Below are positions 7,819 through 9,486 of a DNA stretch of 10,823 nt, piece after piece. The first letter of the stretch is position 1. Each line of letters opens with the position of its first letter. The stretch is from the NCBI GenBank assembly GCA_018065685.1, contig JAGHSU010000001.1:1-10823 (forward strand), in the 5' to 3' direction. A program made the position numbers and the translations under genes. The stretch is from Candidatus Methanocorpusculum equi. Lineage in GTDB: Archaea; Halobacteriota; Methanomicrobia; Methanomicrobiales; Methanocorpusculaceae. The notes under the pieces were generated by a model. That model was not told the origin of the DNA and made no database searches. It saw nothing but the letters and a program-made list of their open reading frames with translations.

Positions 7819-8478
7819 TTATGCTTCGAAGCGGTTTGCCCAGTATCTGTATTCGAAGAGTGTGAGCGGGATTGCAACAAGGATTGCGATGATAACTCCT
7901 GCAACCGGGATGTTGAGGAGAAGTCCGAGAATTACTGCAATGATGATGTCCACAATGATGAGGATGATGTAGGACAGAATGTATTTTGCAACACCTGCTT
8001 TTGCAATCATGCCGAAGATTTCAGAGAACTTGAATGCTGCTGCAAATCCGTTGCGTGCGAAGTTGATTTCTGCCGGGATTGCGACAATCAGTAAGAGGAC
8101 TGCTGCGATTAATGCAATGATAATTCCCACGCTTCCGATTGCTGCTCCTGCGACTGCTCCGATGTCTCCGCCAAAGAGTGCCGGAATAAGTCCGAGGCCG
8201 CCGAAGATGGCTAAGAGGATGATCGGGATAAGCATGTAGATGAGAGCAATGATGAAGAAGAGCAGACCTCTGATGAAGGACTGACCTGCGTTCGTGAAGT
8301 CCGGTTTTTCGCCTTTGAAGACCTTCAGGAAGATACCCATCGGGATGAAGAAGGCGATTGGGATGATGCTTAACACAAGAAGTGCAAGCATGCGTAAGAA
8401 TCCTTTGATTCCGTCAGTGTAGCACTGTGCGAATCCGTATTTGAGGGATTCTCCTACGTTTTGAATTAATCCAACCAT
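7819..8478 (-). CDS. DUF4013 family membrane protein (downstream copy)
   Basis: A 219-residue, very hydrophobic membrane protein with about five to six helices and glycine/alanine-rich segments. Family features: a short amphipathic N terminus (MVGLIQNVGESLKYGF), the segment FKGEKPDFTNAGQSFIRGLL (54-73) before a long helix, NFARNGFAAAFKFSEIFGMI (139-158), and the closing IPVAGVIIAIL...FEYRYWANRF (190-217). DUF4013 proteins occur widely in methanogens and have no known function. The frame opens 33 codons further upstream, but the ATG at 8478 is chosen because a strong GAGGTGA (8489-8495) stands 10 bases before it and it begins the family N terminus. It lies 167 bp downstream of a divergent paralogue, with its own promoter-like region and a terminator, so the two are probably separate transcripts. 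Confidence 0.9.
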   Translation of the reverse strand: MVGLIQNVGESLKYGFAQCYTDGIKGFLRMLALLVLSIIPIAFFIPMGIFLKVFKGEKPDFTNAGQSFIRGLLFFIIALIYMLIPIILLAIFGGLGLIPALFGGDIGAVAGAAIGSVGIIIALIAAVLLLIVAIPAEINFARNGFAAAFKFSEIFGMIAKAGVAKYILSYIILIIVDIIIAVILGLLLNIPVAGVIIAILVAIPLTLFEYRYWANRFEA

Positions 8479-8545
8479 AGTTTTTAATTCACCTCTATTT
8501 GTAGAGACAGTATTATTTATGTTACTATTGTGTATTAAACGTTTC
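8479..8545 (-). promoter_or_regulatory. Promoter and ribosome site of the downstream DUF4013 gene
   Basis: On the minus strand GTTTAATACAC (about 8530-8540) and CATAAATAATAC (about 8510-8521) are TATA candidates; the first would start transcription near 8509. GAGGTGA (8489-8495) follows, 10 bases before the ATG. The ribosome site is clear; which TATA box is used is not. Confidence 0.5.
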
Positions 8546-8645: not shown

Positions 8646-9422
8646 TTACTGGTTTTCAGGGTTGAGCATCTCAGCCCAGAAAACAGCTTCCACAAAGAAC
8701 AGTCCAACTGCGAGAATCAGACCGATAATTCCGCCAATGATACTTCCTGCAACCGGAATCAGTGAGAATAATCCTACAATAAGTCCGATAATCACGCAAA
8801 GAATAATCATTGCGACAAAGAGAACGAGAATTCCCAGAAGAATCTTGTACCACTTTGCCTGGCCGATCATTGCAAAGATCTCCTTGAAGTGGAATGCTGC
8901 ACCGAACTTGCCCTGAACGGCGAAGTTAACAAGAGCAGGCATCATGAAGATGGAGAAGAAGATGATCAGGATGAGAATAAGAACTCCCCAGACTCCAAGT
9001 CCGGCAATGGCTCCCCAGATGGCGCCAGAGCCCGCGGTAGCGGTTGCAAGAGTGTCAAGTCCAATGGTTGCGCCAGCTCCTGCTGCGCAGATGATGGCGA
9101 AGATAATCACCGAGATAATCTGATAAATCAGCGTGATAACGAAAAGCTGGAATCCTCTGCCGATGTTTCCCGGGAAACTAAAGATTTTTTCTTTTCTGCC
9201 GTACAGCTTTACCTGTACACCGCACGCGAACAGTTCAATCAGAATGCCCACGACAATAAGAACAATACCAAGTACAGTATTTCCTGCTGTGAAGGTTGTT
9301 ACTGCACCGACGACAGCAGCCGCTGCCGCGATAAAGACAATGGTAAGAAGAAGCCACTGGCTTAAGTGTTTAAACGGGTAGGTTACACCCTTTCAAAGTG
9401 ATGCAAATATTTTTGCAGACAT
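8646..9422 (-). CDS. DUF4013 family membrane protein (upstream copy) interrupted by an in-frame TGA at codon 10
   Basis: The frame from ATG 9422 to TAA 8646 is 258 codons, and codon 10 (9393-9395) is TGA. Before it stands MSAKIFASL; after it KGVTYPFKHLSQWLLLTIVF, the Y-P-F amphipathic start expected of DUF4013, then several helices, FACGVQVKLYGRKEKIFSFP (66-85), KFGAAFHFKEIFAMIGQA (about 171-188) and a closing IPVAGSIIGGIIG...FFVEAVFWAEM. The C-terminal half resembles the neighbouring DUF4013 protein, so these are tandem paralogues. ATG 9422 is supported by GAGGTGA (9432-9438) nine bases upstream and a good BRE/TATA. With a strict stop, the only usable later start I see is GTG 9251, giving 201 residues without the N terminus and first helix. 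It may be a recent pseudogene, an N-terminally shortened gene, a sequence error, or a read-through case. Function of the family is unknown. Confidence 0.75.
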
Positions 9423-9431
9423 AAATTAGCG

Positions 9432-9486
9432 TCACCTCTTTAAGTGAACAGTATAATATACACAGTATCACTATAAATACTTTTTG
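9432..9486 (-). promoter_or_regulatory. BRE/TATA promoter and ribosome site of the upstream DUF4013 gene
   Basis: The minus strand reads CCAAAAAG (purine-rich BRE) then TATTTATA (9472-9479), a near-consensus archaeal core promoter. A start about 26 bp later, near 9449, leaves a leader of roughly 27 bases holding GAGGTGA (9432-9438), nine bases before the ATG at 9422. All elements look intact even though the gene carries a TGA at codon 10. Confidence 0.7.

Follow-up and report, generated by a model that had tools for sequence, protein, structure and literature searches.

A TGA at codon 10 of an archaeal DUF4013 gene is probably a consensus error in a metagenome-assembled Methanocorpusculum genome

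An in-frame TGA interrupts a DUF4013 membrane-protein gene of Candidatus Methanocorpusculum equi in the window analysed here, a stretch of 10,823 nucleotides. From sequence comparison, we consider it probable that this TGA stems from a wrong base in the consensus of the metagenome-assembled genome. The organism itself would then have all 258 codons of the gene uninterrupted, codon 10 standing for glycine as in relatives, and would read UGA as stop, as its kin do. The codon differs by one base from that of an orthologous locus (L001), relatives have glycine at the position, and conserved genes of the same bin are cut by all three stop codons and by a frameshift. Since the bin contains these other broken genes, the window TGA would most simply be one more of its errors. 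The preliminary description had explained the TGA by a sequence error or by a nonsense mutation of very recent origin, and that simple reading holds, with a sense codon in relatives and further broken genes in the bin. The features of the locus are these:

8646..9422, minus strand: DUF4013 membrane-protein gene of 258 codons and a final TAA, interrupted by TGA as codon 10
9393..9395, minus strand: the in-frame TGA, GGA in L001 and glycine in 7/7 orthologous proteins
7819..8478, minus strand: tandem DUF4013 paralogue of 219 aa, intact, sharing 36% identity with the interrupted gene
9432..9438, minus strand: ribosome-binding site GAGGTGA, common to L001 and present upstream of the paralogue too
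9249..9251, minus strand: GTG at codon 58, the first in-frame ATG, GTG or TTG past the TGA, opening an ORF of 201 aa

The coordinates and frame described earlier were all found again: on the minus strand the start ATG lies at 9422-9420, nine sense codons (counting the ATG) precede the TGA at 9395-9393, and 248 sense codons follow it, up to a TAA ending at 8646. The part after the TGA matches the DUF4013 profile (PF13197) with 49.8 bits against a cut-off of 26.9, the match spanning codons 53-216. Judged by its relatives, 8646..9422 is a true gene frame and not a chance one, since seven orthologs of 254-275 aa have the same MSAKIFASL start and the same end. Eight other ORFs of the window, between 425 and 10822, match DUF1015, HGSNAT_cat, D-aminoacyl-tRNA deacylase, FtsZ, SecE, Spt5/NusG, MFS_1 and the C-terminal part of MutL.

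What do relatives carry at codon 10? An ortholog search with the post-TGA part as query, in which scoring covered the 8000 candidates with the most words in common, returned 13 proteins; seven align with the whole query at 59-97% identity. All seven begin with MSAKIFASLG, with glycine at the position of the TGA. A wider alignment of 15 homologues (the 13 search matches, the window paralogue and L006) has glycine there in 13, the exceptions being P0009 and P0012. The earlier view that the TGA falls on an ordinary residue is therefore mistaken, the paralogue itself having glycine, and so is the pairing of SLKYGF with SL-TGA-KGV on which the paralogue had been lined up; the proper match sets QNVG-ESLKYGF against ASL-TGA-KGVTYPF. 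L001, the one ortholog read as DNA, has GGA at codon 10, and its first 36 coding bases differ from those of the window at the TGA/GGA base alone; L004 of genome G024 is the same DNA. Among the parent codons once proposed (CGA, GGA or TGG), GGA is thus the one that stands, and CGA and TGG are not the supported ones. The alignment with relatives that had been suggested as a check gives a sense codon at the position, which argues against recoding.

The same comparison bears on the reading that ranks second after consensus error, namely a genuine GGA-to-TGA nonsense mutation that arose very recently in the source strain and leaves a nine-residue peptide and an inactive gene. We regard it as unlikely, if well ahead of the remaining alternatives. 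A one-base change at a conserved glycine, with a sense codon in intact relatives, is what such a mutation would leave, an intact tandem paralogue is present, and the gene looks accessory, so that a true mutation would be tolerable, which is a point against error: among 60 relatives only G024 has a match of more than 50% identity. Apart from the stop, the window differs from the 97% identical P0001 at seven residues, six of them within residues 37-50, a segment that varies among relatives as well. At residue 253 the window has L where 7/7 orthologs have F, in favour of decay; against it, the window residue is unique at only two of the seven positions (43 and 253), the frame is otherwise undamaged, and the pairwise dN/dS of the gene against L001 is 0.41. 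Among 102 DUF4013 matches in 61 genomes, with codons 58-258 covered, five contain stops, all TAA or TAG and none TGA. A search for viral contigs with either allele found none.

A wider survey covered 473,356 bases in 79 stretches of the bin (G000, 71% complete). Eight genes, the window gene included, are cut there by one in-frame stop within a conserved frame, four by TGA, three by TAG and one by TAA. The number is a lower bound, as the query proteins reached only part of the sampled bases and many matches were assessed visually. The others, together with a frameshifted gene, are these:

L106:4691, minus strand: EamA transporter, TGA; glycine in 11/13 rows, serine in one, one not covering
L190:378, minus strand: CofH, TGA; glycine in L170
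L198:1979, minus strand: TudS-related gene, TGA; glycine in 8/8
L189:3555, plus strand: IleRS (isoleucyl-tRNA synthetase), TAG; tyrosine in a 28% identical relative
L095:2563, plus strand: ribose-1,5-bisphosphate isomerase, TAG; glutamine in 7/7
L095:3780, plus strand: RuBisCO III, TAG; threonine, asparagine or serine in seven relatives
L036:1920, plus strand: TPR protein, TAA; phenylalanine in 15/15 relatives covering the position
L078, about 620, minus strand: uS9 ribosomal-protein gene, frameshifted, its pieces split between two frames

Near-identical intact versions are known for two of the broken genes (P0001, 97%; P0014, 98%). The EamA gene was matched at 42% identity, under the limit of an earlier stop survey that took matches of at least 45% (52 of 72), and the 103-aa part of L198 matches NF045597 below the cut-off of that profile. 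P0020, a 133-aa protein from a contig of 1997 bases, is a near-identical EamA fragment; the bin has no second copy so close, and P0020 could represent a variant strain within the same assembly. Another broken gene may lie at L202:1355 (TAA). By eye, the stops in L098, L051, L101, L092, L096 and L109 lie in antisense ORFs or beyond true gene ends, and most remaining stop-bearing matches were set aside by eye on the same grounds.

The preliminary description had proposed a search for conserved frames broken only by TGA; three more such genes did turn up, yet so did four genes broken by TAG or TAA and the frameshifted uS9. Essential single-copy genes are thus broken regardless of the type of stop, IleRS by TAG, CofH by TGA and uS9 by a frameshift. 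Every cell depends on IleRS and uS9, and every methanogen on F420. A living methanogen could hardly tolerate breaks in IleRS, uS9 and CofH, which are therefore most likely consensus errors, and the same breaks weigh against a true mutation in the window, as a living strain could hardly afford them. The locus resembles a young DUF4013 pseudogene in its single stop at a conserved sense position of an otherwise intact frame; it differs in that essential genes of the bin are broken alike, which a true mutation leaves unexplained. As with consensus errors of metagenome-assembled genomes, one bin shows isolated stops of all three types together with a frameshift, in conserved and partly essential genes whose counterparts in relatives lack them; a point of difference is that all four TGA breaks fall at glycine positions.

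Family searches across 41 genomes support the contrast with relatives. IleRS scored over the family cut-off in 37 of the 41 and CofH in 39, and in both families only the match of our bin had a stop inside, for CofH its single match. The open frame of the isomerase is 152 aa long in the bin and at least 311 aa in the 22 other genomes whose match reaches 64%; that of L198 is 179 aa, against at least 210 aa in 24/24 others. A stop scan flagged 47 places over 473 kb of the bin, 33 over 800 kb of G015 and 11 over 185 kb of G024, most of which look by eye like ordinary gene junctions. Possible frameshifts numbered three in the bin (uS9 among them), two in G015 and none in G024. With nine mid-match stop places in G015 and five in G024, these two controls are not proven clean, and the 41-genome searches are the firmer control. 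One frame of G015 (L128:7967, minus strand), formate-transporter-like, has a TAG about 32 codons before its end and looks broken.

The region before the ATG bears on how the frame would be expressed. The GAGGTGA ribosome site named in the preliminary description is in place at 9432-9438; TTTATA, ATACTGTTCAC and AGAGGTGACG stand upstream of the ATG in a region common to L001, and a similar arrangement of TATA-like and ATACTGTTCAC elements precedes the tandem paralogue. Window segments 8479-8545 and 9423-9482 (minus strand) contain a TTTATA-like element, ATACTGT and AGAGGTGA, an arrangement that both tandem DUF4013 genes have in common with L001 and that might be a shared promoter or operator. 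Downstream of the TGA, GTG 9251 is the first usable start, and most of the DUF4013 match lies beyond it, so a shortened 201-aa protein might be made and used from there. We give this reading very little weight: the full N-terminus is kept in 7/7 orthologs, no Shine-Dalgarno-like sequence was found in the 30 bases before the GTG, and the shortened protein would lack the first hydrophobic segment, as identified by eye. A +1 frameshift at CTT TGA, a context resembling the bacterial prfB site, was rejected, as the +1 frame reads GAA AGG GTG TAA and stops at once.

Why not read the UGA as a sense codon? Recoding here, for instance as glycine or selenocysteine, seems highly improbable to us, though relatives have glycine at the TGA in 4/4 TGA-broken genes (serine in one EamA relative). 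In a sample of 297,559 of 1,154,005 bases (26%), 213 ORFs of 150 codons or more ended in TAA (113), TGA (84) or TAG (16). Codon scores past the stop were -0.18 for TGA (57 extensions), -0.06 for TAA (90) and -0.01 for TAG (14), compared with +0.17 over the first 30 codons of ORFs. UGA is an ordinary stop in the bin, given that 84 of the 213 long ORFs end in TGA with non-coding sequence after it. The tRNA check suggested earlier points the same way: no UCA anticodon was read among the 32 tRNAs of the bin, a result that is weak alone at 70.8% completeness. The aRF1 gene is unbroken in the bin. Recoding of UGA would also leave the TAG and TAA breaks and the frameshift aside, and relatives 97-98% identical carry glycine.

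Selenocysteine fares no better. A selenoprotein gene was rejected because orthologs have glycine rather than cysteine or selenocysteine, and because neither tRNA-Sec nor SepSecS scored over cut-off in 25 genomes; the tRNA-Sec search passes in 5 of 14 controls and that for SepSecS, with weak partial matches in 3 of the 25 genomes, in one of 14. All 25 genomes have tRNA-Sec matches at E <= 0.001, each under the cut-off, and the three of our bin coincide with two tRNAs read as Arg and one read as Gly. Archaeal stop-codon readthrough is reported as demonstrated for selenocysteine and pyrrolysine (PMC8211752), and a published table gives Methanocorpusculum labreanum with aSelBL and without aSelB or SelD (PMC3037878). 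Among 12 titles from a literature search, none deals with UGA recoding in Methanocorpusculum; for DUF4013 the literature covered gave one paper, on cotton.

One oddity speaks against errors being evenly distributed. Each of the four TGA breaks hits a glycine position, and the genes cut by TAG or TAA are broken at Gln, Tyr, Phe or Thr/Asn/Ser. The codons one step from TGA have a summed usage of 0.092, to which GGA contributes 0.032, so that four of four TGA breaks on glycine would have a chance of about 0.015 under even error, a figure noted after the fact. At the L036 TAA (Phe) and one L095 TAG (Thr, Asn or Ser) the codons read from relatives differ from the stop by more than one base, and not every case is neatly accounted for by simple base errors. 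The code in which UGA is read as glycine (NCBI table 25) is known from bacterial lineages; the bin is like it in its four TGA breaks at glycine positions and differs in using TGA as an ordinary terminator, with no UCA tRNA found. We keep in view, as the least probable of all readings, that this strain decodes part of its UGA codons as glycine and still uses UGA as a stop, since four of four TGA-cut conserved genes are cut at glycine, including CofH, a gene that methanogens require; a UCA-anticodon tRNA-Gly encoded in the portion of the genome absent from the bin would suffice.

Were the glycine pattern true, it would represent a new archaeal code variant; the data favour error. The case is a caution, in that a clean in-frame TGA in a draft genome mimicked recoding or a pseudogene until essential genes of the same bin proved broken. 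Surveys of recoded stops should include a control for other broken genes in the same bin.
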